A DNA stretch of 64,000 nucleotides from Oscillospiraceae bacterium (lineage in GTDB: Bacteria > Bacillota > Clostridia > Oscillospirales > Acutalibacteraceae): positions 57,076-121,075 of the forward strand of contig CACYHA010000013.1 of the NCBI GenBank assembly GCA_902774035.1, in the 5' to 3' direction. A program made the position numbers and the translations under genes. The notes under the pieces are model-generated. The model was not told the DNA's origin and did no database searches. It saw only the letters and a program-made list of their open reading frames with translations. Positions 37,809 through 58,239 of the stretch are shown one piece after another; within the stretch, counting starts at the first letter, position 1, and every line of letters starts with the position of its first letter.

Positions 37809-38606
37809 ATGTCGAATTTTTATGATCTGGAAACCGATCTTGCCGTGGAGGATGCAAACCCCCAGGAGGAGCAGGACTTTGAAGACATTTCCGATTTTGG
37901 CCCTTATGACCAGCAGGACGCCGAATCCCGTTGGGGAAAGATGGATTTTATCGAGCTGATCGGCGAGCTTGAAAACTACATTGCCACGTCCAAGCGCTTC
38001 TTCTTCTCGCGCAAAAAGCGCGTGATCAACGGCGAAGAGATGACCCATCTGATGCAGTACATCCGCAGCAAGCTTCCGAACGAGCTGACCCAGTCCCGCC
38101 GGATCATTGCCGAGGAGGAGGGCATCATCGCCGCCGCCAGACAGCAGGAGAAGGAGATCGTGGATTCCGCGCAGAACTACTACAAGTCCACCACGCAGAG
38201 CGCCACGGAGGACGCCGACAAGATCATCAAGCGCGCCCAGGATCAGGCGGAAGAGATGGTGGCTGCCCACGCGATCACCCAGGCTGCCCGTGTCCGTGCC
38301 GACGAGATCAAGGAAAACTGCCAGAAGGAAATGAGCGCCATCGTCGCGCAGGCCTATCAGGACTGCGAAGACCATAAGCAGCAGGCCAGAGAATGGGCTG
38401 CCGGCGCGTCTCAGGGCGCCTACAACTTCATCTGCGATGCGCTCAGCAAGTATCAGAACATCGCGATGACCAACCTCAACCAGATCACCGACGTCTACAA
38501 GCAGTTCCAGAGCGGCTATGAAAGCCACATGCAGTCGCTGCAGGCCAATCCGGCTGTGCAGCCCCAGCGTGCCGCGGCTCCGGCAGACGAGGACGAGGAC
38601 GAATAA
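37809..38606 (+). CDS. Coiled-coil protein downstream of coaD, 265 aa
   Basis: A cytoplasmic, acidic protein. Residues 1-45 are disordered and acidic; KMDFIELIGELENYIATSKR begins the helical part; about 95-200 is a long coiled coil (IIAEEEGIIAAARQQEKEIV, EDADKIIKRAQDQAEEMV); and the tail is Pro/Ala/Asp-rich, ending DEDEDE. The organisation recalls DivIVA-like or V-ATPase subunit H-like coiled-coil proteins often seen after coaD in Clostridia. Function is not established. GGAAAGGAAGAGAG precedes ATG 37809, and a perfect terminator follows. Confidence 0.8.
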   Translation: MSNFYDLETDLAVEDANPQEEQDFEDISDFGPYDQQDAESRWGKMDFIELIGELENYIATSKRFFFSRKKRVINGEEMTHLMQYIRSKLPNELTQSRRIIAEEEGIIAAARQQEKEIVDSAQNYYKSTTQSATEDADKIIKRAQDQAEEMVAAHAITQAARVRADEIKENCQKEMSAIVAQAYQDCEDHKQQAREWAAGASQGAYNFICDALSKYQNIAMTNLNQITDVYKQFQSGYESHMQSLQANPAVQPQRAAAPADEDEDE

Positions 38607-38679: not shown

Positions 38680-38721
38680 AAAAAACGCTTTCAAAGGGGT
38701 CTCCCTTTGAAAGCGTTTTTT
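38680..38721. terminator. Perfect 19-bp terminator hairpin
   Basis: AAAAAACGCTTTCAAAGGG (38680-38698), loop GTCT, CCCTTTGAAAGCGTTTTTT (38703-38721). A run of A before and T after makes it work in both directions. It ends the coiled-coil gene. Confidence 0.95.
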
Positions 38722-38976: not shown

Positions 38977-39801
38977 TTACTTTACGGCGAGATAACCGTA
39001 GGTGACGCCGCTTTCGTTGAGCGCGCGCATGGCGGTGTTGTAATGCATGGAGTCTTCGGCCGTCACGGTGAATCCGCCGGCGGTGATGTGAATGTAATCG
39101 TTGGAAAGGCCGACCACGGCGCAGTCGGTGAAGTTCAGCAGCGTGTTGTAGTTGCTGTCGAGCTTCACGGCCGGCGCGTTCAGCGCGAACACATAGACCA
39201 GCAGCGGCCGGAACCCGAGGGAGATCGTCACCGTGTTCAGCGGGCCGAGCCCGTTGTAGGTGCCGCAGACAAAGGGCGCGGAGATCCGGGCGCGGTCGGC
39301 CGGCGAAAGGTGTACGGCCGTGTCGTTCACATGCGTCTTGCAAAGAAAGTCCGCATAGGGCCGGATGATCGTTCCGGAAACATTGAAGGCCGGGCACTGC
39401 TCAAACCGGAAATGCAGCTTGCAGGGGATCTTCAGCGCTTTCAGATAATCGTCGATCACGGCGGTGCCGATCTCATAGCTGCCCATCAGACCGGCGTATT
39501 CGGCGATCACCCGGTCGAGCACCTGCTCCGCGTAGGCGCAAACGCCGATGGCGCTTTCTCCCGGCGGGGCGTAGCAGTTCATGGAAACGGTGATCTGCGT
39601 GCGCTGGCAGCATTCCTCGGTGTCGATGTTTTCGAGATCCACCTTGTCCTGCCCGATCAGAAACGCAAAGTAAAATTTGGTCAGAGGCGCAGGCACGGCG
39701 CGGTCGTCAAACGAGAGCAGGGCCTCGCACACCGCGGAATCTTCAATGACCGTGTCGTTCACGAAATTCACGATCCCGTTGATGAGGTTGGTGGTCGTCA
39801 T
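38977..39801 (-). CDS. Phage-like neck/tail-completion protein with fibre-knob-like C-terminus
   Basis: A 274-aa protein, last gene of the capsid cassette. Residues 1-140 (MTTTNLINGIVNFVNDTVIE, ITVSMNCYAPPGESAIGVCA) look like a tail-terminator or head-completion subunit. The C-terminal part has the pattern GTYNGLGPLNTVTISLGFRP, then LLVYVF, then GGFTV, and ends SGVTYGYLAVK. This pattern (G-x-G, I-x-LGF-x-P, GFTV, GxxYxYxAxK) is common in phage tail-fibre knobs and appendage proteins. The start ATG 39801 has GGAGG 8 bp upstream. The role assignment is inference, and the fusion is unusual. Confidence 0.7.
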   Translation of the reverse strand: MTTTNLINGIVNFVNDTVIEDSAVCEALLSFDDRAVPAPLTKFYFAFLIGQDKVDLENIDTEECCQRTQITVSMNCYAPPGESAIGVCAYAEQVLDRVIAEYAGLMGSYEIGTAVIDDYLKALKIPCKLHFRFEQCPAFNVSGTIIRPYADFLCKTHVNDTAVHLSPADRARISAPFVCGTYNGLGPLNTVTISLGFRPLLVYVFALNAPAVKLDSNYNTLLNFTDCAVVGLSNDYIHITAGGFTVTAEDSMHYNTAMRALNESGVTYGYLAVK

Positions 39802-39802
39802 A

Positions 39803-40156
39803 TCAGGTCCTCCAATCGTTGTTCTGGTGAACGATCGCCCAGTCGTACAGCGGCGTTTCGCCGAAAAAGACCTTTTCGCAATGGTCCACACAGAAGCTGT
39901 CGCCGCCGAATTTGAGCAGCGTTGTGACGCCGTCCACGGCGGTGATGTTCGCCTCGGTCGGGCAGATCAGCACAAACTTGCGCAGGGTGTCATAGCCGAT
40001 CTCGGTGAGCGTGCCGCTCAGATACATTTTGTTTTTGTATCTGAGCGGCTGCAGAAAGGCTTTGCAGGTGAAGGTGCCCGCCGGCGATTCCACGGTCATG
40101 GTGCGGCCGAACTTTTCAAAAAACCGTGTGGTGGGGTTTTCAGGTCGCAGCAGCAT
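39803..40156 (-). CDS. Phage-like head-completion protein, 117 aa
   Basis: ATG 40156 with GGAGGG 5-6 bp upstream overlaps the previous gene by 17 bp in another frame. The product reads MLLRPENPTTRFFEKFGRTM, then TFTCKAFLQPLRYKNKMYLS, with a beta-rich middle (ANITAVDGVTTLLKFGGDSF) and an end HQNNDWRT. Size, position after the adaptor gene and beta content suit a head-closure (stopper) protein of a tailed-phage neck. There is no diagnostic motif. Confidence 0.65.
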   Translation of the reverse strand: MLLRPENPTTRFFEKFGRTMTVESPAGTFTCKAFLQPLRYKNKMYLSGTLTEIGYDTLRKFVLICPTEANITAVDGVTTLLKFGGDSFCVDHCEKVFFGETPLYDWAIVHQNNDWRT

Positions 40157-40502
40157 AGAACCCTCCGTCCCGCAGAATGGGCGCGGCGGCTGCCAGCGCC
40201 TCGTCGCGAAGCTGCTGTTCAAAGCGCAGCTCGGCCTGCAGATTCTTCTGAATGGTGATGTCGCCGGCCTTGTAGCCGGAAAAGCGGTCGCTTTCCGAAA
40301 GCAGCAGACTGAACAGCTCGAACCGGGCCAGCGCCGCAGCAAGGCGCAGCAGGCGCAGATCGTCCGGATCCGCCTCTTCGCGCAGGCGCGGCTGCAGCGT
40401 GCGCAGCACCCGGCCGCACACGGGCAGCATCTGCTCCGGCGCAAGCGATTCGAACGCGCAGTTCTCTTTCAGAACCGCGCAGATGTCAATGGGTTCGATC
40501 AA
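40140..40502 (-). CDS. Phage-like head-tail adaptor protein, 120 aa
   Basis: The start is taken as TTG 40502 (LIEPIDICAVLKENCAFESL), because an in-frame ATG is lacking and AAGGAAGG lies upstream. It is almost fully helical, with PDDLRLLRLAAALARFELFS. Small helical proteins directly after the capsid gene are usually gp6/gp15-type connector subunits that bind the portal. It overlaps the next gene by 17 bp. Confidence 0.65.
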   Translation of the reverse strand: MIEPIDICAVLKENCAFESLAPEQMLPVCGRVLRTLQPRLREEADPDDLRLLRLAAALARFELFSLLLSESDRFSGYKAGDITIQKNLQAELRFEQQLRDEALAAAAPILRDGGFYAAAT

Positions 40503-40518
40503 GAGATCACGCCCTTCC

Positions 40519-41526
40519 TTAAAGTGTCAGCGCTTTGGATGCGTCCTCGTAGATCTTCGCGAAGCCGTAGGTGGTGGTGATGGCGGCGCGTTCGAGCTGG
40601 CGGTCGATCAGCTTGTCGAATTCCGTCAGCACGCCGCCGACCTGCACCTGCTCCAGCGCACATTTGCTGTCCAGACCGATCAGCTTGCCGGAGCTTACGG
40701 CGCCGCTCTTCATCAGTTCGGCGCCGAAGGGGGTCACGAGGTTGCCCGTGGCGTGGAAGTTCAGTCCCGCCGCGCCGTCGCGCAGCTCGGAAAGCTTGAG
40801 CATGGCGGCCATCATGGAGGGCGAGGCAATGATCGCGTTCAGCGTGAACGGATCAAAGAGATTCCAGAAATCCACAAGGTCGGCGTAGGTGAGGGTGCCG
40901 GCTGTCGCAACGCCCGTTTCGGTGATGGCGTTGTCGTTGCCGTCGCCGTTCATGAGCACGCCGATCGCGTCCGCCAGACGGGTCTTGGCGATGTGGGCGC
41001 CGATCTGACGCAGCGTGACAGTGAACAGATCCAGACGCTGGAAGCGCAGCGCTTCATAGGACGCGACGAGCATACGGCCGCGCTTGTGCAGCGTGACAAG
41101 GTTTTCTTTGGTGGAGACGGATGTTTCGGGAATGGCGGCGCCCTCGGCGACCGGGTTCAGCGTTTTGTCCGCGTCGGACATGTTCGACGTGATGGTGCGG
41201 TAATCGAGGCCTTCAATGTCGGTCACGGTCGCAACGAGCTTCGACAGCAGGTCGTTTTCCTCGATCCCCTGCCAGACGGCGCGGCTGATGTATTCCGGAA
41301 AGAGCGCTGCGGAATCCGACGTTTTGAAAAACTTTTCGACCATGTCGCTGCCTCTGCCGCTGACGTGGATGTCAAAGCGCTTGAGCTGGCGCTGAAAAGC
41401 GTCGAGACCTTCCAGCGGCGTGCCGATGTAGTTTTCGGACGGATCCAGCGTCTCCAGCGCGTCGGTGAACGATTTGCCGGTGGTGTAGAGTCCTTTTTCG
41501 AGTTTGATCGTTTCGTAGTTTGCCAT
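40519..41526 (-). CDS. Phage-like major capsid protein (HK97 fold)
   Basis: A 335-aa protein after AGGAGG and ATG 41526. ISRAVWQGIEENDLLSKLVA, EGAAIPETSVSTKENLVTLH and LHKRGRMLVASYEALRFQRL form the N-arm, E-loop and spine-helix pattern of HK97-type capsid proteins. GVLMNGDGNDNAI and VTPFGAELMKSGAV follow in the P and A domains. It lies between the protease/scaffold and the adaptor gene, as in siphoviral head modules. No insertion or decoration domain was seen. Confidence 0.88.
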   Translation of the reverse strand: MANYETIKLEKGLYTTGKSFTDALETLDPSENYIGTPLEGLDAFQRQLKRFDIHVSGRGSDMVEKFFKTSDSAALFPEYISRAVWQGIEENDLLSKLVATVTDIEGLDYRTITSNMSDADKTLNPVAEGAAIPETSVSTKENLVTLHKRGRMLVASYEALRFQRLDLFTVTLRQIGAHIAKTRLADAIGVLMNGDGNDNAITETGVATAGTLTYADLVDFWNLFDPFTLNAIIASPSMMAAMLKLSELRDGAAGLNFHATGNLVTPFGAELMKSGAVSSGKLIGLDSKCALEQVQVGGVLTEFDKLIDRQLERAAITTTYGFAKIYEDASKALTL

Positions 41527-41552
41527 AATAAGAAATCCTCCTTAAATCATCA

Positions 41553-42491
41553 TCAAATGCAAAATGCGCGGTTGTTTTGGTTTTCGGTTTTCGGCGCGGT
41601 ACGGGCGAGCTGCAGCATCGGCGGCAGCGCGGCGTCCGCCTGCGTTTTCAGCGATTTTCGCATCGCCTGCAGCGCTTCGGCGTCCATGGCGCGGCAGATC
41701 TTCAAAAACTGCGGCGCGCTGACGTCCGGCAGGGCGAACAGCAGATATTTTTCGATATCGCCCAGCAGCTTTTCGCGGTAGGCTTTTGCGTCGCTTTCGC
41801 TTTGTTCCAGCGCGGCGAGCCGCTTTTGCAGCACGCGCACGTCTTCGGCGGAAAGCTGCAGCCCGGTGCGGGCGGTTTTGATGCGTTCCAGCGCGGGTTC
41901 GACCGGCGTCGGTTTTCGGAACGCCTTGGTCACGCCGGCGCCCTTTTGGGCGGGAACGGCCACAAAGGACCATTCATAGGCGTCCTGCGGGTCGTCGAGG
42001 ATCAGGTGGCACACCTGTTCGCCGTAGCGGCTGCCGGGACGGTGGTCGCAGGCGAGGTCGCGGTGCGATTTGCCGCAGATGCTGCAGGTGGCTTTGCCCA
42101 TGCTGCAGCCGACGGAGACCTCCTTTTTGATCCCGCCGTCGATCTCGTCGATCAGGCTGCGGTTCTGTTCGGTGCGCACCATATACGCTTTGGCGCGCAG
42201 CATGGTGTAGGCTTCCCCGACGGTCGTTTTGCGCGTTTTGTCTTCTTCGACCCAGGTCTTGAAGATGCGGGCGGTCTGGCCGCCGGCTTTCTGGTCGTGG
42301 TCGAAAATGCCGCTCTTGCCGAGGAACAGTTCCGCGAGCTTGTGCAGCGCCGGCACGGTGAACCGCTCAAAGTCGCGGTCGATCTCGTTGTCGCACAGGG
42401 TCACGGAAAACACATAGACCTCGTCTTCGGTCAGGGCGCGGCGGGTAAAGCTGTTGAGAAGCCGCAGCTCTTCTTCTGAAATTCGGCTCAT
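41553..42491 (-). CDS. Prohead protease fused to a scaffold-like region
   Basis: A 312-aa protein. The N-terminal 190 residues resemble HK97-type prohead proteases: VYVFSVTLCDNEIDRDFERF, a His in GIFDHD (His65), EVSVG with Ser126, and WSFVAVPAQKGAGVTKA. Inserted after the Ser is a Cys/His cluster (CSICGKSHRDLACDH, residues 136-150) that could bind zinc, unusual for this family. Residues 205-312 are helical (VRVLQKRLAALEQSESDAKA) like an internal scaffold. The start is within an ATGA overlap with the portal stop, with GGAGAGAG upstream. Confidence 0.75.
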   Translation of the reverse strand: MSRISEEELRLLNSFTRRALTEDEVYVFSVTLCDNEIDRDFERFTVPALHKLAELFLGKSGIFDHDQKAGGQTARIFKTWVEEDKTRKTTVGEAYTMLRAKAYMVRTEQNRSLIDEIDGGIKKEVSVGCSMGKATCSICGKSHRDLACDHRPGSRYGEQVCHLILDDPQDAYEWSFVAVPAQKGAGVTKAFRKPTPVEPALERIKTARTGLQLSAEDVRVLQKRLAALEQSESDAKAYREKLLGDIEKYLLFALPDVSAPQFLKICRAMDAEALQAMRKSLKTQADAALPPMLQLARTAPKTENQNNRAFCI

Positions 42492-43642
42492 GCGCTCTCT
42501 CCTTTCAGTTCATTGAGGATTTTTTGCGTTTGCGCGTTGTAGTATTCGGCGCGGGCCAGCTCGGTGATATCCTGCAGCGTGAGCGCCTCCCATTCGATCC
42601 GCACGTCGCTGCCGTAGCCTTCCAGACGCAGAAACACCTGAAAGATGCGGCGCAGCGTCGGATCCAGCAAACGGCGGTAAAAGTCGATCTCGCTGGTGAG
42701 GATGTCGGCCTGCTGGGCGCTCATGCGCTCGGTGGAAGACCAGTTCAGCCCCAGCAGGAAGGGCGGCACGCCGAGCTTTGCAACGATCTGTTCCAGAAGC
42801 TGGCGCACCGGCACCTGGCTGTCGGGGATCTGGTTGTCGGCGCCGATGGCGCGGATGGAAACGTCGCCTACGGCAACAAAGTCTTTCACGGTGCCGCCGG
42901 TCTGCATGGCGTTTTTCCACTGCGCGGCGACCTGCTCCGCCCGCTCTTTGGCGTAGGCCTTGTCCAGCGCGTCGTTCTGCGGCTTGTATGTCACGGCGTA
43001 ACGCACGTTGCCCAAACGGTCCCAGTTGATGCCGATGGTATTGTAGATCTTCAGCAAAATTTCGCACACAAAGGGCAGACCCTTGAGCAGCGAGGTGCCG
43101 TAGACACTGCCCGGCGCGGGATTCAGCACGCTTTTGAGAATGAGCGCGGGATAGGGGACGGGTGTGAGCTTGCCGCCGGCGCCCTGTGTGCAGACCGTCA
43201 CATCCAGCGGGTTTTCTCCGACGCAAAGCGCAACGTCACGCAGGTCGGCGTTGTAAAGGTGGGTCAGTCGGCCGCCGGTCAGCGCCATTTCGCCCACGGC
43301 GGTGCCGTAGGTCAGAAGCTGGTCGAAGAAGGTGCGCACAAAGGCGTGGATGCCGGTCTGCATCCCGCCGACACGCACCTCGTCCATGAAGCGGCGGGCG
43401 GCTGCTTCGGCGCGTTCGTCGCTGCAGCAGACCGTGAAGTTGCCGAGCAGACGTTCGATCTTATCCAGCGCCGCGTCAATGATGGGGATCCCTTCGCGCA
43501 AACTGCGATACAGCTCCAGCTCGGCCTGCCTGCCCGGGCAACAGCCCTGCAGGGCGGCGAACGGATGGCAGTGGTTCACGCTTTGCGGCACCGCCACGGC
43601 TTCCACGCCGGAGGGTGTCGCTTCTTTCTTTTTCTTTGACAA
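42488..43642 (-). CDS. Phage-like portal protein
   Basis: A 384-aa protein. TTG 43642 is chosen as start because AAAGGAG lies 7 bp before it; the frame upstream runs into a hairpin element. The N-terminus is basic (LSKKKKEATPSG). DQLLTYGTAVGEMALTGGRL, PVPYPALILKSVLNPAPGSV and PPFLLGLNWSSTERMSAQQA (the helix that lines the portal channel and the loop after it) are typical of phage portals. The C-terminal region is helical (ALTLQDITELARAEYYNAQT). A 183-bp gap holding a compound hairpin element separates it from terL. Confidence 0.87.
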   Translation of the reverse strand: MSKKKKEATPSGVEAVAVPQSVNHCHPFAALQGCCPGRQAELELYRSLREGIPIIDAALDKIERLLGNFTVCCSDERAEAAARRFMDEVRVGGMQTGIHAFVRTFFDQLLTYGTAVGEMALTGGRLTHLYNADLRDVALCVGENPLDVTVCTQGAGGKLTPVPYPALILKSVLNPAPGSVYGTSLLKGLPFVCEILLKIYNTIGINWDRLGNVRYAVTYKPQNDALDKAYAKERAEQVAAQWKNAMQTGGTVKDFVAVGDVSIRAIGADNQIPDSQVPVRQLLEQIVAKLGVPPFLLGLNWSSTERMSAQQADILTSEIDFYRRLLDPTLRRIFQVFLRLEGYGSDVRIEWEALTLQDITELARAEYYNAQTQKILNELKGESA

Positions 43643-43694
43643 GTGGATACTCCTTTCTTTTGACAGGGTTGGGAGGACTTTTTCGGGTGTTGTT

Positions 43695-43812
43695 GCGGCG
43701 GGACGAACCGTGCGAAGCACGGTTCCGCAGACGCGCAGGAAGGTGTTTTGTTTTTATTGGGAGGTGTTTTTCGCGCGCCTGCACGCGCGGCTGCGCCGCG
43801 CGGTCCCGCCGC
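43695..43812. repeat. Compound hairpin element C inside the capsid operon
   Basis: The outer stem GCGGCGGGAC (43695-43704)/GTCCCGCCGC (43803-43812) is identical to that of element B. It encloses hairpins 43705-43725 (9-bp arms, loop GAA) and 43784-43802 (8-bp arms, loop TGC). The element lies between terL and the portal gene and could attenuate transcription. Confidence 0.8.
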
Positions 43813-43825
43813 CTGATCCGCCCGT

Positions 43826-45082
43826 TCATCGTTCTGCCGCGATCGCAAAGAACGGATCCTCCGGCTGCGAAAGCACGGTCGCGACAAAATAGCGCAGATC
43901 GTCCATGGCGTGATCGTGCTCCTTTTTGACCCGGTCGCCGGAAGCGCTCTCGTCCCATTGATAGAGCGAAAACTCGCGCAGGGTGTTGCTGCAGGCGGGG
44001 GAGATGCAAACGAGCCCCTGGCGCAGCGCCTCCTGCGTTTTTCGAATGCCGTCGAGCACGTCGTTGCGCGCCTTTTGGACACGGAATCGCCCGTGGCGGC
44101 GGATGCATTCCGCGAAGGATGCGGCGGACGGGTCGATGATCACGGCGGCGATGCTGCGGCCGGCGGCGAGGGCTTCGAGATCGGCGTAGTATTCCTCGTC
44201 GGTCTTCTGCTTTCCCGCTTTGCGCGCGTCAAAGTAAAACTCGCGTTCGCGGTACCAGACCGTTCCGTGCAGACCCCACAGCCCGATCGACGTCGGGTTG
44301 ACGGTGCCGTAATCGCAGGAGAGATAGCTGCAGCTTGCGCTCGTGGCGGGAACCTCTTTGGTGTAATCGCCGTTTGCCGCTTCGGGGTAGACCAGTCCTC
44401 CGGCCGCGACCCAGTTGCCGAGCACGAACCGCTCATAGAACGCGCCGGAGTAGAGCGAGGCATAGCGTTCGATCACGCGCGGAGAGAGCGCCGGGTTGTC
44501 CTCCATGCGGAAATGCAGATGCAGCACATGCTTTTCTTCGGCCTTCTGGATCCATTCGGTGTAGAACCAGTGCAGGGGGTGCTCCGGGTTGCAGTTGAAC
44601 CAGAATTTTGCGCCCTCCGGCGAACAGCGGGCCAGCGCCTGTTCCACGAACGAGCGCGGCATGAGCGCCACCTCGTCGAACAAAACGCCGTGCAGGGTCA
44701 TGCCCTGGATCAGCGCGGCGGAGGATTCGTCCCGCCCGCCGAAGAGATAGAACCGGTTGTTTCTGCCGCCGAAGGAGATGTCGACGAAGCTGCGTGAGAG
44801 CACGTCGCGGCAATCGAATCCCAGCGCACGCAGGTTTTCCAAAAGGCCGGTGACGATGTTCCGCCGCAGGGAGGTCACGGTTTTTCCGCAAAGGGCGAAG
44901 GCGGCGCCGTCAAAACGATAGAACGCCCAGGCGACAAAGGACAGAGACATGCAGGTCGTTTTGCCCGATCTGACAGCCCCGTCGCAGATCAGGCCGTCCA
45001 GAGCGCTTGTGGGCGCTCTGTCGTGCCACCAGGTCAGCACCTTGCGCTGCTTCTCGGAAAAGGACGTGAACTCAAGCGCCAT
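43826..45082 (-). CDS. Phage-like terminase large subunit
   Basis: A 418-aa packaging motor. GAVRSGKT (about 35-42) is Walker A and GVLFDEVAL the Walker B with catalytic Glu. The RNase H-like nuclease has acidic residues at LSCDYGTVNPTSIGLWGLHG, VIIDPSAASFAECIRRHG and HAMDDLRYFV. All motor and nuclease motifs are intact, so the gene does not look decayed. The start ATG 45082 overlaps the small-terminase gene by 11 bp. Confidence 0.93.
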   Translation of the reverse strand: MALEFTSFSEKQRKVLTWWHDRAPTSALDGLICDGAVRSGKTTCMSLSFVAWAFYRFDGAAFALCGKTVTSLRRNIVTGLLENLRALGFDCRDVLSRSFVDISFGGRNNRFYLFGGRDESSAALIQGMTLHGVLFDEVALMPRSFVEQALARCSPEGAKFWFNCNPEHPLHWFYTEWIQKAEEKHVLHLHFRMEDNPALSPRVIERYASLYSGAFYERFVLGNWVAAGGLVYPEAANGDYTKEVPATSASCSYLSCDYGTVNPTSIGLWGLHGTVWYREREFYFDARKAGKQKTDEEYYADLEALAAGRSIAAVIIDPSAASFAECIRRHGRFRVQKARNDVLDGIRKTQEALRQGLVCISPACSNTLREFSLYQWDESASGDRVKKEHDHAMDDLRYFVATVLSQPEDPFFAIAAER

Positions 45083-45551
45083 CGCTGTTGCGCTCCGTTC
45101 GTTCCGCCGCCCCGCCCAGCGCGGCAAAAAACGCGGCCGTTCGCTCGTCCGGCGTGCGCCCCGCCATCTGCTCCAGCCGTTCGAGGGCCTTGAGCCGGTC
45201 AAAGAATTTGATCTCCAGCCCGCCGCCCTTCGGCCTTTTCAGCTCCGAGACGAGGAAGAGATCCAGCGCCTCCGGGTCGGGCAGTGCGTCGTCGCTTTGC
45301 AGCAGCCGCACCGCGTCGCTCACACAGCCGAAGGCCAGCCGCCGGTAGCCGGCCAGCACTTCGGCCCGACATTCGGCGGTTTCCCTGTCGAGCTTTTCGA
45401 TGCAGCGCTGCACATCCTTGCGCCGCAGCAGCCGCAGCCCCGCGCGTTCCGGGTTCCGGTAGCCGCATTTTGCAGCCGCCTCCCGCCCGGAACGGCAAAG
45501 CCGGTAGTAGGCGCAGAACAGCGCTTCTCTGTCCGAAAGTTCTTTTGCCAA
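45072..45551 (-). CDS. Phage-like terminase small subunit
   Basis: A 159-aa protein starting at TTG 45551 (AAAGG upstream; a TGA lies in frame just before). The N-terminus LSDREALFCAYYRLCRSGRE is the helix-turn-helix region of small terminases (LTxKQxxFxxxYxxxxNxxxA), followed by KDVQRCIEKL and a helical oligomerisation core. It recognises the packaging site and hands DNA to TerL. It is the first gene of the cassette. No lysogeny, replication or integrase gene lies upstream; the neighbour is divergent and unrelated. Confidence 0.85.
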   Translation of the reverse strand: MAKELSDREALFCAYYRLCRSGREAAAKCGYRNPERAGLRLLRRKDVQRCIEKLDRETAECRAEVLAGYRRLAFGCVSDAVRLLQSDDALPDPEALDLFLVSELKRPKGGGLEIKFFDRLKALERLEQMAGRTPDERTAAFFAALGGAAERTERNSDGA

Positions 45552-45853: not shown

Positions 45854-48800
45854 GTGAATACAAAAACAAAATCCAATCTCAAACGCACCCTTGCCGTCTT
45901 TTTGACGCTGCTGATGCTCATGACTTCATGGGTGTTCGTCGCGCCGTCTGCGGCGGCGGAAGGGGAGCCGACATTGGTGGGGCGGTATTTCTCCACCGAC
46001 AATATCTGGTTTGACGCTTCAAAAGGCGAAAACGGCGTGCAGTGGCAGTTCGGCGACTATCCGGCATACAGTTCAAAGCTCGGCATGACCTACTTTAACG
46101 GTATGTATGTGCGTCTGGATCATGCCAACCAGTTTTCTGGGGTTAACCGCGACACCGGTTTGACTTTTGCGTTTAATTATCGTCCGAATTTTACCGGCGA
46201 TCACCGTCACATTCTTTCCCTTGGTCAGAATGCTTACGGCGGAAGTCCGAAAAATCACCTCTATATTTCCGGTACAACGTCTTGGAACAGTGAAGGTGCA
46301 TTTCCGCAGGTTGGTTGGGTCGATGGTACAGGAACAGACGGAACCGAACTGATCAAAGCGCACCCTGTGGGTGTGACGCCGGAGCTCGGAAAGGAGTATA
46401 ACATCGTAATTACCATCGGCAAGGATGACGGCGTGACCTTCTATGTGGACGGTGAAAAGAAAACGACTGCCTACACGGGAAGCAACAAGGATGACCAGAT
46501 AGGCAATATTTGCTCATTTCTGGATGAAGTGAGCACTTACGGAGAAAACTACATCGGCTGCTCCCGCTGGACAAGCGACGCAAAACTTGAAGGCTATTTG
46601 AGCGACGTGCGCATTTATGCCGGTGCAATGACCGAAGAACAGGTCTATCCCATGATCTCCGATATGGTTGGCACGATCAACCTGACCGCGCCCGTCTTCA
46701 GTGCAGTTGCTTACCACACGGTCAACGAAGCGACCGGCGCTTACAGCAACCTTGTTTATGCGCCGTACGACGATACTGCATTTACCGGTGGCGATACCGA
46801 TGGGTATAAAGAGGTCGGCGCAATGCTCTTCAAAGTGATTACACCGCGCAAAATTGTCATGGCCTATGACGGTGTGAATGATGTTTATTCTCCGATCGAG
46901 CTTGAGACAAAGAAACACGACAAGGCAGCTGTCAGCAATCAAAGGTTAAAATATGTTGCTTCAGACACAGCCAGGTTGCCTTTGGCGCAGTATTGGTACG
47001 GTTATCAGAACGGCGGCGGAGATAATTATAAGATTTGGGCCGGTCCGCAAACCGGAAACTGGTTCTCTCAAGTTGCCGACGGCGCTTGGGATCTTGGACA
47101 GGATAATACTAATACACCCAGATTTTGGTGGAACAAACTGCAGTACACCGGTTCCGGCGATACAATTGCATATTATGAACAGTATCAGAACATCACGTTT
47201 TCCGCCTGTTCACCTTATGAAAACTGGGGCAACCACGAACCGGTTGATACATTGAATTCTGAATCCAATTACTATGTTCTCAACTACGCCCCGGTTTATA
47301 GTGTCCTTTCCGCTGCGAGCACCTTCAACAGTACCGAGCTCAGCACCAATGCGTGGAAGTACACTGACCAGTCTCTTGCAAAGGCAAGACTTGCCATGCG
47401 CCGCCTGACGCTGTGCAACCCGAACCTGTATGATTACAACGACGCTTCCGCCGGTAGAGGCGTAGACGCTTCTGTCAAACTCAGCGCTGCAGCCATCAAG
47501 CAGGCGATTGCGAATTACAACGCGATCAACCTCATCAAAAAGACCGGCACGGTCTATTGGAATAACTGGAACGGCAACAACCTCGAGACCGATCCTGCCG
47601 TGAATTACGGCGACGTTCCGACCTATGACGGCGCGCAACCGCAGAGAACCGCGGGCAAGGATTACTATTATACCTTTAACGAGTGGACGCCGACACCCAC
47701 AGCGGTGACCGAGGAAGAGACCACCTATACGGCGGATTTTGACGCCCACGAGCAGTCCTACACCGCGACCGTCACCGACGACGGCTCCATCGGCAACCTC
47801 GTTTCCGGTGTGACCGTCACCTACGATACAGACTACACCTTCACGCCCGAAATGGCGGTCGGCAAGAGCCTCATGAAGGTTGACACTGCAACAGTAACCA
47901 TCGACGGCGCTTCCGCGACGGCGGGCACGGATTACTCTCTCGACGCCGAGACCGGCGCAGTGACCGTCTTCGGCGCAAAGATCCTCGGCGACGTCACGAT
48001 CGCTTACACCACCGTGCCGAAGACCTTCTCCGTGACGGTGAACGGCGCGAACCTCCAGCAGCCTTCCGGCGGCTATGCCGACGCGACGGCCTACGTCGCC
48101 TACGAAGCGCGCCTGACCCCCGCCGCGAACCACAAGATCACCGGCATCTCCTCCGTGACCGTGAACGGCGCGAACTTCACCTCTTTCGGCTACAATGCGG
48201 GCACGAAGACCGTGACCATCCCCGCCGCGAACGTGACCGGCGACATCGTGATCAATGTCACGACCGCTGCGGAAAGCTACGATCTGACCTTCGGCGGCGA
48301 GGTTTCCAACGAAGGCGTTGAAAACGGCGTCACCTACGGCGAAAACTGTGTCCAGACTTTGACGGCGCTTCCCGGCTATTACATCAACGGCGTGAGCGTG
48401 AAGATCGGCGCCAACGACTACCCCGACTTCTCCCTGTCCTCCAACGTTTTCCCGGCGCAGAGCGTGACCGTGACCGTTCCCGGCGCAGACATCACCGACG
48501 ATGTGAAAATCATCGCCGACACCGGCAACTCCTATGCGGTTGCCATCTCCGGCACGAATGTTGCTGCCGCCACCGACACCGCATATTACAGCACCGAGGA
48601 CGATTACACCTCGGTCGCCATCACGGCTGATACGCATTACCACATCACCGGCATCCAGAGCGTGACCGTCGGCGGCGCAGCCACCGCCTATACGTTTGAT
48701 GCCGACGCAAAGACCGTGACCATCTCCGGCACGGCCATCACCGGCGCGGTGGAGATCGTTGCCACTGCCGCCATCGACACCTACACCGTCACCTTCAAGA

Positions 48801-51800
48801 ACGGCAGCACCGTCCTCGGCACACCGCTGACCCTCGGCTGGGATTCCCCCGTGGCGTACAGCGGCGCGGAGCCGACCAGGGACAGCACCGCGCAGTACAG
48901 CTACGCGTTTAACGGCTGGACGGTGGAGGGCACCGAAACCTTCATCGGCAAAGACGACCCGCTGCCCAACGCCACGGCGGATGTGACCTATGTCGCGTCC
49001 TTTGCGTCCACCGTGCGTTCCTACACCGTCACCTTCAAGAACGGCGACACCGTGCTCGGCACACCGCAGACCCTTACCTACGGTTCCCCCGTGGCGTACA
49101 GCGGCGCAGAGCCGACCAAGGCGGCCGACGCCCAGTACACCTACACCTTTGACGGCTGGAACGACGGCACGAACGATTACGGCAAAGACGACACGCTGCC
49201 GACCGTTTCCGGCACCGTGACCTACACGGCGAAGTTTGCGCCGACCCTGAACAAATACAAGATCACCTTCCTTGCCGAAGACGGCGTGACCGTGCTCAAG
49301 GTCAGCGCGGACGACCCGAACGATTACCGTGAATATGACTACGGCACTGCCGCGGCGAACATCGCTGTGCCCACCGTGCCCGAAAAGGCTGCCACGGCGC
49401 AGTACACCTACACCTTCGGCGGCTGGGATCCCGCCCTTGCCGACGTGGCGGATGACGCGACCTACACTGTGACCTACACGGCGAACCTTCGCTCCTACAC
49501 CGTCACCTTCAAGAACGGCGAGACCGTTCTTGGCACACCGCAGACCCTTGCCTACGGTTCTCCCGTGGCCTACAGCGGCGCAGAGCCGACCAAGGCGGCC
49601 GACGCCCGGTACACCTACACCTTCAGCGGCTGGAACGACGGAACGACCGATTACGGCAAGAACGACACGCTGCCGACCGTTTCCGGCACCGTGACCTACA
49701 CGGCAACCTACACGGAAACCCCGCAGACCTATACCGCATCTGTCATTGGCGCCAACATCACGGCCGTCAACAATACCGCCACCTACGGCACGCCCTATGA
49801 AGCGGCGATCACCGCCGCGTCCGGCTACCATGTCCACGGCCTCGAATACGTGAAGGTCGGCGACACGACGCTGGCGGAAGGCGACTACACCTTCGTGAAC
49901 GGCACGGTGACCATCCCCGGCGCCGCAGTTCTCGGCAACATCGAGATCAAGGCGGTCGCCGCGATGAACGCCTACACCATCACCTGGGTGCTCCACGGTG
50001 CCAGCGTTGAAACCTCGGCCGAAGACGGCGAAGTTCCGTCTTACACCGTCGCGCCCTACACCGAGAACGGCCACGTCTACAAGTTCTCCGCATGGGATAC
50101 CACGCCTGTTGCCGCCACCGGCAACGCTACCTACACGGCGAACTATGCGCTCGACAAAGACGACGAAGCGAACGTCCACGACTGGCTGTCCGCAACCTAT
50201 GTTCCCACCGAGGCCGACGGCGTCATCTCCAAGGTGACCGCCAGCAAGACCTGCGACTTCTGCGGCAAGATCCTCACCGAGGAAGCCACCGTGGGCAACG
50301 GCCTGACGAGCGTAGTTACAAAGGAAGCGACCTGCAAGGCCGCGGGCGAAACCACTTATACCGCGACGTTCAGCGACGCGTTTGCAACGCAGACCTATGT
50401 CCGCGCGAACATCGCGATCGACGAAAATGCCCATACCTACGATTATACAAACATCACCTACGCCTGGGCTGAAAAGGAAGGCGGCTACGATTACGTCGCG
50501 ACGATCCCCTGCGCAAACGACGAATCCCATACTCCGCTGACCGTGAACGCGACGGTGGAAGTCACGTCCGTGACGGCCGATTGCTCCACCAAGGCGAGCA
50601 CGACCTACACCGCCACCTTCGAAGACGCGCGTCTGACCGGCGACGTCAAGACCGTTGAGGGCGACTTTGACCTGACGAAACACACCTACAACAACGCCGA
50701 CGCCTCCTTCGCCTGGGTGAAGCCGGAAGGCCAGGATTGGCAATACATTGCAACGATCCCCTGCGCCAAGAATTCCGAACATGACGCGAAGGTTGTGGTG
50801 GCGAATGTCACCGTCAGCACCGCCGACGCGAACTGCACGACCCCGGGCGACACGACCTATACCGCCACGGGCTTCCCGGCGGAAAGCGGCCTGAGCCTGC
50901 CGGCGGGCTATGAAAACAAAGTGGTCAGCGGCGAAACGAACGGCAACCACGACTGGAATTACAACGACCCGATTATCACCGCTCCCGTCAAGGATGGCGA
51001 GGTCTGGGGCGACGGCTCCGTGGTCTACGCCTGCACCCGCAACGCCGAGCACAAGACCGAGGCGCTGGCGGTTGCCAGAGCGAATTACGGCGCCTATGAC
51101 GCCGAGATCGAAAAAGTGGAAGGCTTCCTTTCCGGCAACGATCTGAACGGCACCGTGCGCGCAGCGCTGCAGTCGATCCTCGACACGCCGCTGCAGCAGA
51201 ATCTTGTGACGCTCAAGGACGGCGTGAACTACGACGGCCACACGGCCTTCGATCAGCAGTCCACTGTGGACGCAGCGGTCGCGAATATGCGCCTTGCGCT
51301 CGCCGATGTGCTCGACGAATACGCAACGCCGGACGGCGAGGGCGGCTACACCTTCAACGAAAATGCGCTGCAGACCTATTCCGTCGTCTTCACCGATAAC
51401 CTCGGCGGCTCTGACACGGTGGAACAGCCCGCAGGCAAGGATTGGTACATTGTCAAAGAGGGCTACAAGCTCGTCGGCATCACCGCCGAGCACGGAACGG
51501 CTGATCTCGCCAACGCGAAGTACACCTTCACCAACAGCGCGGACACCGTTACGCTGACCTTCGCGGTGGATGTGGACGCGGTTCTTGCCGCAGCCGGCAT
51601 CATCGTTGAAAACCAGACCAACTACGACAACAACGAGGGCTTCCTCGACCGCCTGCAGGCTGCCTACGGCGAACTGACTTCGATCCAGAACGATCCCGAA
51701 CAGAACGCCAGAGCGGCCGAGCTCAAGCAGACCTTGCTTGATTTGATCGACGAGAGCCACGACCACAAGAAGGACGGCGCTTCCTGCACCGTGACCTTCA

Positions 51801-52969
51801 TCTACGGCAAGAACGACGATGTGCCCGCGATCATCAACACGACCGTCGGCGCAACCGTGACGGCCCCGAGCGCACACGAGACCTCCTACACCAGTGCAGG
51901 CTTCTCCTATCCGGTTGCCTACTGGGTGGACGCCGAGAACAACAGGTACACCACCTCCTTCCCCGCGGCCACGGACGGTGCTGTCTACCACGCGGTCTAT
52001 ACGCTCTATGATCTCATTGACGATCTTGCGGCCATCCGCGCGGCGAGAGAAAGAGAAAACGTGATCGGCGGAGCCGACATCGCCGCGATGGAGGACATCC
52101 TTTCCCAGATCAACACCCTCTTTGCCGACCACGGCGTGACCGTGAGCGAATACCGCACGGTGCAGGCGAATGCGGTCGATCGGGAGACCGAAGAAGGCCA
52201 GGCCTTCATCACCGCGCTGCACACTCTGATCGGTCAGTTCCAGTCTGTTTCCGAAAGCGCCGAGGCGGTCTGCGAAGGCCACCAGTATGATTACTACGAT
52301 CAGAAGGTTCCCTCCTGCACGGAGCCGGGCTACACCGCCTACAAGGTCTGCCGTATCTGCCGCACGAAGGTCGGCGGAACGGAAATCCCGGCCACGGGTC
52401 ACAGCGCCCACTATGACCGCGATGCGGTCCGTTCCGGCGCTCTCGGCGACGGCACCTGCACCTGGGATACCTACACCTGCAACAACGGCTGCGGCGACTT
52501 CTATCTGATTCCGGTCTACATTGCCCGTTATTCTGACGGCTCCACGATTGCCGGCGCAACCGTGACCCTGTTTGCCGACGGCCACAACATCTCCGTGGTC
52601 ACCGACGCAAGCGGCAGAGCGAACTTCCGCGGCCTTGTGGCGCCGGGACAGCTCAGGGAAGGCGAATATGCCCTGACCGTTTCCATCGGCGAAACCGCCA
52701 AGACCGGAACGATGTATGTCCACAACGGCCGTGTCACGATATCCATCGCACGCATTGATAATCCGGGTTCCTCCGGCGGCGGCGAAGGCGAAGGCGGCGG
52801 CTCCGAAGAATTCCGCTGCCCGATGTGCGGCGCCTATGAGGAGCTGCGCACGATGCCGGTGGTCGGCTGGTTCGTTGCCATCGTCCACTTCTTCGTCCAC
52901 ATGGCATACCGTATCATCAATGCTTCGACCGCTTTCAGCGGAAAGTGGACCGGTGACTTCTCATTCTGA
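45854..52969 (+). CDS. Giant secreted multidomain repeat protein, 2371 aa
   Basis: The start is GTG 45854 after AGGGGAT. The signal peptide (to about residue 36) reads LKRTLAVFLTLLMLMTSWVF. Residues 40-280 are a LamG/concanavalin-like sandwich (YIGCSRWTSDAKLEGYLSDV, VRIYAG). A less familiar region (about 290-600) follows, then many beta-repeat units: InlB/Listeria-Bacteroides-type repeats (YTVTFKNGDTVLGTPQTLTY, YTYTFDGWNDG) and VIGANITAVNN-type modules. Later come Cys-pair units (CDFCGKIL, CRICRTK), helical spacers, and a carboxypeptidase-regulatory-like domain (SDGSTIAGATVTLFADGHNI). The C-terminus is CPMCGAYEELRTMPVVGWFV then IVHFFVHMAYRI, a Cys-x-x-Cys unit plus hydrophobic tail. The first 1.7 kb is visibly richer in A+T than the rest, suggesting mosaic origin. 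An adhesin or matrix role is likely. Confidence 0.9.
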   Translation: MNTKTKSNLKRTLAVFLTLLMLMTSWVFVAPSAAAEGEPTLVGRYFSTDNIWFDASKGENGVQWQFGDYPAYSSKLGMTYFNGMYVRLDHANQFSGVNRDTGLTFAFNYRPNFTGDHRHILSLGQNAYGGSPKNHLYISGTTSWNSEGAFPQVGWVDGTGTDGTELIKAHPVGVTPELGKEYNIVITIGKDDGVTFYVDGEKKTTAYTGSNKDDQIGNICSFLDEVSTYGENYIGCSRWTSDAKLEGYLSDVRIYAGAMTEEQVYPMISDMVGTINLTAPVFSAVAYHTVNEATGAYSNLVYAPYDDTAFTGGDTDGYKEVGAMLFKVITPRKIVMAYDGVNDVYSPIELETKKHDKAAVSNQRLKYVASDTARLPLAQYWYGYQNGGGDNYKIWAGPQTGNWFSQVADGAWDLGQDNTNTPRFWWNKLQYTGSGDTIAYYEQYQNITFSACSPYENWGNHEPVDTLNSESNYYVLNYAPVYSVLSAASTFNSTELSTNAWKYTDQSLAKARLAMRRLTLCNPNLYDYNDASAGRGVDASVKLSAAAIKQAIANYNAINLIKKTGTVYWNNWNGNNLETDPAVNYGDVPTYDGAQPQRTAGKDYYYTFNEWTPTPTAVTEEETTYTADFDAHEQSYTATVTDDGSIGNLVSGVTVTYDTDYTFTPEMAVGKSLMKVDTATVTIDGASATAGTDYSLDAETGAVTVFGAKILGDVTIAYTTVPKTFSVTVNGANLQQPSGGYADATAYVAYEARLTPAANHKITGISSVTVNGANFTSFGYNAGTKTVTIPAANVTGDIVINVTTAAESYDLTFGGEVSNEGVENGVTYGENCVQTLTALPGYYINGVSVKIGANDYPDFSLSSNVFPAQSVTVTVPGADITDDVKIIADTGNSYAVAISGTNVAAATDTAYYSTEDDYTSVAITADTHYHITGIQSVTVGGAATAYTFDADAKTVTISGTAITGAVEIVATAAIDTYTVTFKNGSTVLGTPLTLGWDSPVAYSGAEPTRDSTAQYSYAFNGWTVEGTETFIGKDDPLPNATADVTYVASFASTVRSYTVTFKNGDTVLGTPQTLTYGSPVAYSGAEPTKAADAQYTYTFDGWNDGTNDYGKDDTLPTVSGTVTYTAKFAPTLNKYKITFLAEDGVTVLKVSADDPNDYREYDYGTAAANIAVPTVPEKAATAQYTYTFGGWDPALADVADDATYTVTYTANLRSYTVTFKNGETVLGTPQTLAYGSPVAYSGAEPTKAADARYTYTFSGWNDGTTDYGKNDTLPTVSGTVTYTATYTETPQTYTASVIGANITAVNNTATYGTPYEAAITAASGYHVHGLEYVKVGDTTLAEGDYTFVNGTVTIPGAAVLGNIEIKAVAAMNAYTITWVLHGASVETSAEDGEVPSYTVAPYTENGHVYKFSAWDTTPVAATGNATYTANYALDKDDEANVHDWLSATYVPTEADGVISKVTASKTCDFCGKILTEEATVGNGLTSVVTKEATCKAAGETTYTATFSDAFATQTYVRANIAIDENAHTYDYTNITYAWAEKEGGYDYVATIPCANDESHTPLTVNATVEVTSVTADCSTKASTTYTATFEDARLTGDVKTVEGDFDLTKHTYNNADASFAWVKPEGQDWQYIATIPCAKNSEHDAKVVVANVTVSTADANCTTPGDTTYTATGFPAESGLSLPAGYENKVVSGETNGNHDWNYNDPIITAPVKDGEVWGDGSVVYACTRNAEHKTEALAVARANYGAYDAEIEKVEGFLSGNDLNGTVRAALQSILDTPLQQNLVTLKDGVNYDGHTAFDQQSTVDAAVANMRLALADVLDEYATPDGEGGYTFNENALQTYSVVFTDNLGGSDTVEQPAGKDWYIVKEGYKLVGITAEHGTADLANAKYTFTNSADTVTLTFAVDVDAVLAAAGIIVENQTNYDNNEGFLDRLQAAYGELTSIQNDPEQNARAAELKQTLLDLIDESHDHKKDGASCTVTFIYGKNDDVPAIINTTVGATVTAPSAHETSYTSAGFSYPVAYWVDAENNRYTTSFPAATDGAVYHAVYTLYDLIDDLAAIRAARERENVIGGADIAAMEDILSQINTLFADHGVTVSEYRTVQANAVDRETEEGQAFITALHTLIGQFQSVSESAEAVCEGHQYDYYDQKVPSCTEPGYTAYKVCRICRTKVGGTEIPATGHSAHYDRDAVRSGALGDGTCTWDTYTCNNGCGDFYLIPVYIARYSDGSTIAGATVTLFADGHNISVVTDASGRANFRGLVAPGQLREGEYALTVSIGETAKTGTMYVHNGRVTISIARIDNPGSSGGGEGEGGGSEEFRCPMCGAYEELRTMPVVGWFVAIVHFFVHMAYRIINASTAFSGKWTGDFSF
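48781..49704 (+). repeat. Near-identical internal repeats of the giant gene
   Basis: 210-bp units at 49021-49230 and 49495-49704 differ at few positions, and a more diverged copy starts at 48781. They encode InlB-type beta repeats. Near identity at DNA level implies recent duplication or gene conversion, so copy number may vary between strains. Confidence 0.85.
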
Positions 52970-57598: not shown

Positions 57599-57627
57599 TT
57601 GCATATAATAATCAGGGAGGGATGGAT

Positions 57628-57897
57628 ATGCCATCAATTCGACCGAGTGCAGACCTGCGCAACAACTACAACGAGATCTCCGAATTCTGCCATCAAAGCG
57701 CACAGCCGGTGTTCATCACCAAAAACGGCAGAGGCGACCTTGCCGTGATGAGCATCGAAAGCTATGAAGAACTCTGCAGCAGAATGGAGTTGTACCTTGC
57801 TTTGAGCGATGGACTTGAGGATTTGAGAAATGGCAGGACAAGGCCGGCAGAAGACATCCTCAATGAATTGAGGAAAGAGCTTGATGAAGGTATATAA
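57628..57897 (+). CDS. Type II antitoxin, Phd/YefM/RelB-like
   Basis: An 89-aa protein. The start is set at the second ATG (57628) because AGGGAGG lies 7 bp before it and only 1 bp before the first. IRPSADLRNNYNEISEFCHQ, then PVFITKNGRGDLAVMSIESY, is the Phd/YefM DNA-binding fold, followed by a helical toxin-binding tail (DILNELRKELDEGI). It likely binds the palindrome in its own promoter. It is 3 bp ahead of the toxin gene. Confidence 0.92.
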   Translation: MPSIRPSADLRNNYNEISEFCHQSAQPVFITKNGRGDLAVMSIESYEELCSRMELYLALSDGLEDLRNGRTRPAEDILNELRKELDEGI

Positions 57898-57900
57898 AGG

Positions 57901-58239
57901 ATGTATAAAGTTAGATTTGCGCAGAGAGCGGAACGTGATTTGCGAGAAGCAACGAATTACATTGCAAATCATTTGTTGAATCCGACGGCAGCTTACCGTT
58001 TGGTGGATTCAACACAAAAGGCGGTGGATTCGCTTAGCGTTTTTCCAAAACGGAACCCCTTGGTTCGAGAACCTTTGATTGCATCACATGGAATTCGCTG
58101 GACACAGGTGCAGCAGTATATGCTTTTTTATACTGTGGAAGAAAGCGAAAAAACTGTTGTTGTTCTTCATTTCCTTTCGGCAAGGCAGAACTGGAAAGAC
58201 ATCGATTTTTCAGAGGACACCTTTTTCCCCCGCTCTTGA
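57901..58239 (+). CDS. Type II toxin, RelE/ParE family
   Basis: A 112-aa protein. YKVRFAQRAERDLREATNYI is the N-terminal strand and helices of RelE/ParE toxins, VDSLSVFPKRNPLV the middle, and YMLFYTVEESEKTVVVLHFL the C-terminal strands. Members either cleave mRNA on the ribosome or poison gyrase; the sequence does not decide which. The stop codon overlaps the -35 box of the T-box promoter. Confidence 0.92.
   Translation: MYKVRFAQRAERDLREATNYIANHLLNPTAAYRLVDSTQKAVDSLSVFPKRNPLVREPLIASHGIRWTQVQQYMLFYTVEESEKTVVVLHFLSARQNWKDIDFSEDTFFPRS

Follow-up and report, generated by a model that had tools for sequence, protein, structure and literature searches.

We analyzed a 64,000-nucleotide stretch of contig CACYHA010000013.1 (assembly GCA_902774035.1), from an Oscillospiraceae bacterium placed in the family Acutalibacteraceae of the order Oscillospirales, and refer to this whole stretch as the window. 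At positions 38977-45551, the window carries a 6.6-kb cassette of phage-type head and packaging genes, made up of eight tightly packed minus-strand open reading frames (ORFs) that are all intact and that lie between host genes. A first-pass annotation had proposed such a set from the letters alone, and the ORFs, the Pfam and PHROGs matches, and the motifs of the large terminase agree with that proposal. The features of the cassette are listed below.

45072-45551, minus strand: TerS, small terminase (159 aa, TTG start), with its N-terminal helix-turn-helix-type region kept; Pfam Terminase_2, 1e-10, residues 5-132
43826-45082, minus strand: TerL, large terminase ATPase/nuclease (418 aa); Pfam and PHROGs, motif positions invariant
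42488-43642, minus strand: portal (384 aa); phrog_30703, 6.5e-122
41553-42491, minus strand: prohead protease-scaffold (312 aa); phrog_16951, 4e-98, and predicted model
40519-41526, minus strand: HK97-type major capsid protein (335 aa); Phage_capsid_4, 3.6e-19, and phrog_3922, 8.6e-97
40140-40502, minus strand: p6, probable head-tail adaptor (120 aa), from gene order
39803-40156, minus strand: p7, probable neck stopper (117 aa), from gene order
38977-39801, minus strand: p8, predicted tail terminator (residues ~1-135) fused to a fiber-tip domain (residues ~150-274) (274 aa); AlphaFold model, Foldseek, and alignment
38681-38720, no strand assigned: long hairpin flanked by A/T runs, seen in the sequence; probable bidirectional terminator

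The start positions adopted for TerL (45082), portal (43642), p7 (40156), and p8 (39801) correct earlier ones, and TerL overlaps TerS by 11 nucleotides. The probable terminator hairpin separates the cassette from a convergent host gene. A pattern search did not list this hairpin, and for promoters it found 2 where 1.2 were expected.

TerL matched Terminase_6N (9e-16) and phrog_2 (5e-44), and the positions that we take to be its Walker A motif, its DE motif, and its three nuclease-type Asp residues were invariant in 32 sequences (30 from the genus of the window and 2 from outside it). The portal also matched Pfam Phage_portal at 1e-9, slightly below the family cut-off, and the PHROGs family matched by the protease-scaffold gene is listed there as of unknown function. 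The predicted model of the protease-scaffold protein (pLDDT 86) has a protease-like beta domain at its N terminus and helices at its C terminus. Its best Foldseek matches, which were weak, were to herpesvirus maturation proteases (E 1.8e-3), and His65 and Ser126 were invariant in 27 sequences. The capsid protein, when compared to the PDB by sequence, gave nothing below E 0.2. The TerS of the window has a DNA-binding-type region at its N terminus, with the Terminase_2 match starting at residue 5, and this region is kept in the genus. A profile of the region, built from the genus sequences themselves, did not detect it in 14 of 19 loci of other families or in 7 further loci, which may reflect only divergence.

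The three proteins encoded at the distal end of the cassette, p6, p7, and p8, matched no family in Pfam or PHROGs at E ≤1, and p6 and p7 are conserved across the genus. The first-pass annotation had described the eighth gene as encoding a terminal protein; the gene is present as described, but alignment and Foldseek analysis recast its product as a tail terminator with a fiber tip. In the alignment, p8 divides into an N-terminal domain and a C-terminal tip joined by a linker. The AlphaFold model of p8 (pLDDT 75, pTM 0.47) gave six Foldseek matches at E ≤0.001, including lambda gpU together with chains from the terminator or neck of phages A-1(L), Milano, and 7-7-1; these matches mostly span ~140-165 columns, and lambda gpU chains turn up again lower in the list. 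The linker had a profile match to Gp15 of PDB entry 6r5w (E 0.009), and an hhalign comparison of p8 with the terminator-position protein of relatives was only suggestive (probability 51%, E 1.5e-4). From the model, we read p8 as a predicted tail-terminator fold joined to a fiber-tip domain. The terminator profile matched 30 of 32 genus neighborhoods, 19 of which also had the tip, and the operon of relatives such as locus L074 likewise ends with a tip match.

The genes on both flanks are host genes, as had been proposed, with SecA, MntP, a pyridoxal phosphate enzyme, and CysS identified by Pfam and others presumably encoding ObgE, a YhaM-like protein, RsmD, and CoaD. A PHROGs scan of 10 flanking ORFs (cut-off 1e-5) found no integrase, lysis, replication, or tail family and returned only a toxin-antitoxin pair, SecA, and families of unknown function. 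Tail profiles run over the whole window gave no match beyond the cassette's own genes, in keeping with the earlier view that tail genes are absent, and the suggested check for att sites revealed no direct repeats joining the two flanks.

The portal was found in exactly one copy in 33 of the 34 genus genomes, the window genome included. As many genomes (33 of 34) have TerL, and further TerL matches, distant or partial, occur in G003, G005, G011, G020, and G021. The sole genome without a portal, G029 (89% complete), also had no match to TerL or rpoB, suggesting that the absence of the cassette is an assembly gap; this is not proven, given that rpoB was also missing from five cassette-bearing genomes (G007, G009, G011, G012, and G020). 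The lengths of the cassette ORFs were near-constant across the genus, with shortfalls at contig ends (G009 and G021), in a shorter protease in G021, and in a short p8 in ten genomes; p8 was left unassigned by tblastn in G026 and G033. Stops within the portal matches of G005 and G025 arose from a query that extended upstream of the start, and full-length portal ORFs were recovered. The broken frames expected of a decaying prophage were not seen in the genus. All 40 closest-pair ratios of nonsynonymous to synonymous substitution rates (dN/dS; five pairs per gene) were <0.35, and 25 were <0.2. For the pair G018/G028, dN/dS was 0.058 for capsid, 0.082 for protease, 0.083 for TerL, 0.090 for p8, and 0.096 for portal, with p6, TerS, and p7 at 0.11-0.29, and the medians over pairs with dS <1.5 were 0.19-0.34. 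G035 and G049 were excluded from these comparisons, as were ORFs shorter than 0.6 or longer than 1.5 times their counterpart in the window, and p8 is therefore represented by 20 rows. The cassette is under purifying selection in the genus, including the two genes, terL and capsid, for which this had been proposed as a test.

We considered the possibility that the cassette is a slowly decaying prophage remnant that happens to retain a head module. Phage-derived genes without replication or tail functions are what such a remnant would leave behind, and the variation in tail content across the order and the in-match stops in some relatives outside the genus, both described below, could be read in the same way. 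However, the ORFs in the genus are intact and near-constant in length, the catalytic positions are invariant, inheritance is vertical, and closest-pair dN/dS stays <0.35. Purifying selection refutes this reading for the genus, in line with the first-pass annotation's argument from unbroken frames, and overall we give it almost no weight.

A tree built from concatenated TerL, portal, protease, and capsid sequences of 27 genomes had 19 of 24 inner branches in common with the rpoB tree, whereas 2000 label shuffles gave 0.3 shared branches on average and never more than 3, and the Mantel r between cassette and rpoB was 0.50, with 0 of 9999 permutations as high. An rpoB match was available for 28 genomes, of which the trees include 27; G013 was left out because its fragment was <500 aa. 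TerL entered the cassette matrix only if it was at the locus and had >60% of the length of the window's TerL. One of the five unrecovered rpoB branches is well supported (G008 with G030), and the cassette tree leaves that fork open; some branches are supported in the cassette tree where rpoB is unresolved. The cassette is vertically inherited. The conserved position that the first-pass annotation proposed as a check holds within clades but not between them. The obgE-coaD flank is shared by G000, G018, and G028, while the cassette lies beside a gene cluster with Mfd (the scanned member of that cluster) in 11 genus genomes and beside aspartokinase/homoserine dehydrogenase clusters in 5.

The first-pass annotation had also entertained a capsid-encoding satellite. 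Such an element, similar to the capsid-forming phage-inducible chromosomal islands (cf-PICIs), would make its own heads and borrow the tails of a helper phage. The gene set agrees with this idea, given that cf-PICI modules are described as comprising capsid, protease, portal, connectors, TerS, and TerL without tail genes (PMC10690885), and contractile prophages are present in the genus. Unlike cf-PICIs, however, the cassette is vertically inherited, with a tree congruent with that of rpoB, occurs as a single copy in nearly every species, and encodes its own terminator, which in the window is fused to a fiber; in the flanking ORFs that were scanned, neither an integrase nor a replication gene turned up. 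This option is disfavored, and we consider it highly improbable.

We conclude instead that the cassette is likely a domesticated, vertically inherited, tail-less element akin to a gene transfer agent (GTA). It is a phage-derived structural cluster with no replication or integration genes in the cassette and the 10 scanned flanking ORFs, and it is both inherited vertically and maintained by selection, as expected of a GTA. The domesticated or GTA-like character first suggested for the locus is further borne out by the single portal copy, the intact ORFs, the lack of att-like repeats, and the lack of a baseplate J match in the window's own genome.

The cassette extends well beyond the genus. A portal profile run across the order was positive in 70 of 394 genomes, with one copy in each, including 35 of the 43 genomes of the window's family in that sample. 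In the family of locus L075, 112 of 200 genomes were positive, again with one copy each; this family is seemingly that of the window, given that matches recur at identical contig places, and the two samples overlap. A class-wide portal search gave matches in 12 of 391 genomes, of which 8 within the order were strong and 4 outside it were weak (E 7e-5 to 1e-3). Architecture profiles built from relatives were then applied to 132 loci, some of which are the same contig twice. The sheath, tube, LysM, hub, gp45, gp46, baseplate J, and gp48 profiles matched 0 of 32 genus neighborhoods, several of which end at contig ends. Among 20 loci of other families in the order, 10 matched the sheath profile (built from two sequences carrying Pfam sheath domains), 7 matched the hub only, and 3 were otherwise composed, and many further relatives' loci have a hub and baseplate without a sheath. 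Relatives therefore grade from PBSX-like operons with a contractile tail, via sheathless and hub-only forms, to the genus of the window, and from this unrooted comparison, we infer loss rather than gain of the tail along the order. PBSX of Bacillus subtilis is a domesticated element that packs chromosomal DNA, and relatives in the order carry the PBSX-like set of sheath, tube-position protein, LysM protein, hub, gp46-like, baseplate J, and gp48-like genes. Likened by gene set, the genus of the window differs from PBSX in that no contractile tail was found in its neighborhoods or in the window. In six relatives (L066, L073, L077, L090, L095, and L107), the cassette sits at a fixed position after a deaminase-like gene and two genes that we take to be the spore maturation genes spmA and spmB.

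Baseplate J matches were found in 3 of the 34 genus genomes (best E 2.3e-27, 2.6e-19, and 2.4e-9). The first two of these matches belong to full contractile prophages in which a large ORF occupies the tape-measure position. Loci L261 and L262, in G008 and G030, are contractile prophages that carry sheath-like and baseplate genes as well as a gene at the tape-measure position, and the head-gene profiles of these prophages are unrelated to the cassette.

Faecalibacterium belongs to the same order as the window organism. A Faecalibacterium 16S probe matched 0 of 200 and 0 of 394 genomes, and the TerL of Faecalibacterium phage Mushu, used as a query, matched 5 of 200 genomes with a best identity of 61%, which was uninformative. 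Among the papers listed by term searches of one library, judged on titles and the beginnings of abstracts, only the one on FpGTA in Faecalibacterium (PMC12946183; Nat Commun, January 2026) was seen to describe a GTA in this order. As described there, FpGTA has a head operon and forms ~40-nm particles that contain ~9 kb of DNA and in which tails are not visible. FpGTA I spans 10.5 kb, comprises ten ORFs including a TerS without an obvious DNA-binding domain, and occurs in all 12 Faecalibacterium genomes examined. A second operon, FpGTA II, carries baseplate, fiber, and lysis genes and occurs in 5 of 12 strains, in one of which the two operons are ~125 kb apart (PMC12946183). The same report assigns 20 of 25 GTA-like packaging events in three fecal viromes to Ruminococcaceae and Oscillospiraceae. 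By gene content and published description, the cassette appears close in kind to FpGTA: both have a single TerS-TerL-portal-scaffold-capsid operon without replication genes. Unlike FpGTA I, the cassette is 6.6 kb with eight ORFs, encodes a predicted terminator-fiber fusion, keeps the DNA-binding-type region of TerS, and has no baseplate J that we could find. GTA particles of the Rhodobacter/Caulobacter type have tails. Those GTAs have vertically inherited head genes and dispersed loci, and the TerS of known GTAs is described as having no DNA-binding domain (PMC11841831). Likened by description, the cassette shares with them the vertical inheritance of its head genes and differs in the DNA-binding-type region that the window TerS retains. 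Given this retained region, we describe the element as GTA-like rather than classifying it as a GTA.

In two sister species, G019 and G022, the block runs only from portal to p8, and TerS and TerL form an intact pair on another contig. Upstream of this pair, in the same order and on the same strand in both genomes, are genes for a tail-like protein, a leucine-rich-repeat (LRR) protein, a lysin, and two small membrane proteins.

L259, 5320-10116, and L260, 7758-12050: unlinked terminase-linked module of tail-like, LRR, lysin, and holin-like genes with the terminase pair

The tail-like protein is 62% identical between G019 and G022, and its PHROG tail match reached only 2.6e-4. The LRR protein matched LRR_5 (1.7e-52 and 6.5e-21), the lysin matched CHAP in G022 (1.3e-15) and a PHROG endolysin in G019 (5.8e-10), and one small membrane protein matched Phage_r1t_holin weakly and below the cut-off (8.7e-4 and 4.8e-3). 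By sequence, the locus looks like an adsorption and lysis operon, though it may be a recruited prophage scrap. The earlier statement that lysis genes are lacking stands for the surroundings of the cassette, but these two genomes, the only two in which such a module was seen, have lysis-like genes beside their unlinked terminase pair. In viral contigs, none of 112 pattern matches to the tail-like protein was a relative. In contrast, 226 of 236 such stretches for the small coiled-coil membrane protein were relatives, which marks it as a common phage protein; of the 80 loci kept with it, 4 matched the baseplate J profile and 0 matched a head profile at E 1e-20.

This arrangement raised the possibility that every species has a two-locus GTA like FpGTA I and II, in which the eight-gene cassette is the head half, with adsorption and lysis encoded at a diverged, unlinked locus. 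The distance between the two FpGTA operons and the conserved joining of the terminase pair to lysin, holin-like, and adsorption-like genes in G019 and G022, which have such a second locus in some form, both argue for it. However, FpGTA II itself is present in fewer than half of the strains surveyed, the module is known from just 2 genomes, the other 32 not having been searched for it, and baseplate J matched only 3 of the 34 genus genomes, two of them in full contractile prophages. We hold this to be a serious possibility with slightly less than an even chance, and it refines the explanation of the cassette as a domesticated GTA-like element rather than excluding it.

Several observations weigh against a GTA-like element. 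The window TerS departs from the GTA hallmark of a TerS without a detectable DNA-binding domain, 7 of 70 and 11 of 112 portal matches outside the genus were interrupted by stops, and the source genome of the window is 85% complete. The proteins of the unlinked module were not found in the other fetched neighborhoods or in the window, with no genome-wide search made; the exceptions are L087, which had LRR-type matches, and the contractile prophage of G030, which encodes a lysin relative. Parts of the module resemble ordinary prophage genes. In addition, the fiber tip was undetected in 11 of the 30 genus neighborhoods that keep the terminator, in ten of which p8 is only 127-140 aa. The missing tip, together with the lack of any tail-tube or baseplate match in the 32 genus neighborhoods, several of them truncated by contig ends, would also suit a domesticated capsid that packs DNA without delivering it. 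Such a capsid might act as a decoy, as a killing particle, or in altruistic lysis that sequesters DNA; PBSX is stated to pack DNA without injecting it (PMC12946183). Killing of the tailocin type requires a tube and a baseplate, however, neither of which was found at the cassette, and the intact motor, portal, and neck point to the packing and controlled closing of DNA. We therefore regard a non-transfer use as unlikely, if worth keeping in mind.

Read from its genes, the GTA-like cassette probably builds small tail-less particles that pack pieces of the host's own DNA. In the mechanism we propose, the capsid would assemble on the protease-scaffold, TerL and TerS would pack cellular DNA through the portal, and p6, p7, and the p8 terminator ring would close the neck. 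The p8 tip, where present, may bind the recipient, and lysis would be supplied by an unlinked module.

Other genes of the window lie near the cassette. On the opposite strand, ~300 bp from TerS, positions 45854-52969 encode a very large protein (2371 aa) with a secreted-looking start, the first 1000 residues of which have no Pfam family and whose relatives occupy the corresponding position in G018 and G028. An acidic protein of 265 aa without a Pfam or PHROG match is encoded at 37809-38606, convergent with the cassette, and this neighbor is also kept in G018 and G028. At 57622-58239, a Phd/YefM-type antitoxin gene adjoins a ParE-type toxin gene.

A broader and more speculative scenario, which we put forward as doubtful, is that the cassette belongs to an order-wide inherited DNA-transfer system in which a PBSX-like ancestor with a contractile tail was pared down stepwise. 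In the genus of the window, the receptor-binding tip would sit directly on the terminator ring, with tube, sheath, and baseplate gone and the lysis genes in a separate module, giving a particle in the service of the host that would rank among the smallest known to deliver DNA. If the GTA-like reading of the cassette holds, GTA-like particles would be an old inherited trait across a major order of gut and rumen bacteria, beyond Faecalibacterium alone, and selection could maintain a DNA-packing particle that has no tube, sheath, or baseplate. The variation in tail content between relatives is a natural experiment on which virion parts are required for gene transfer.

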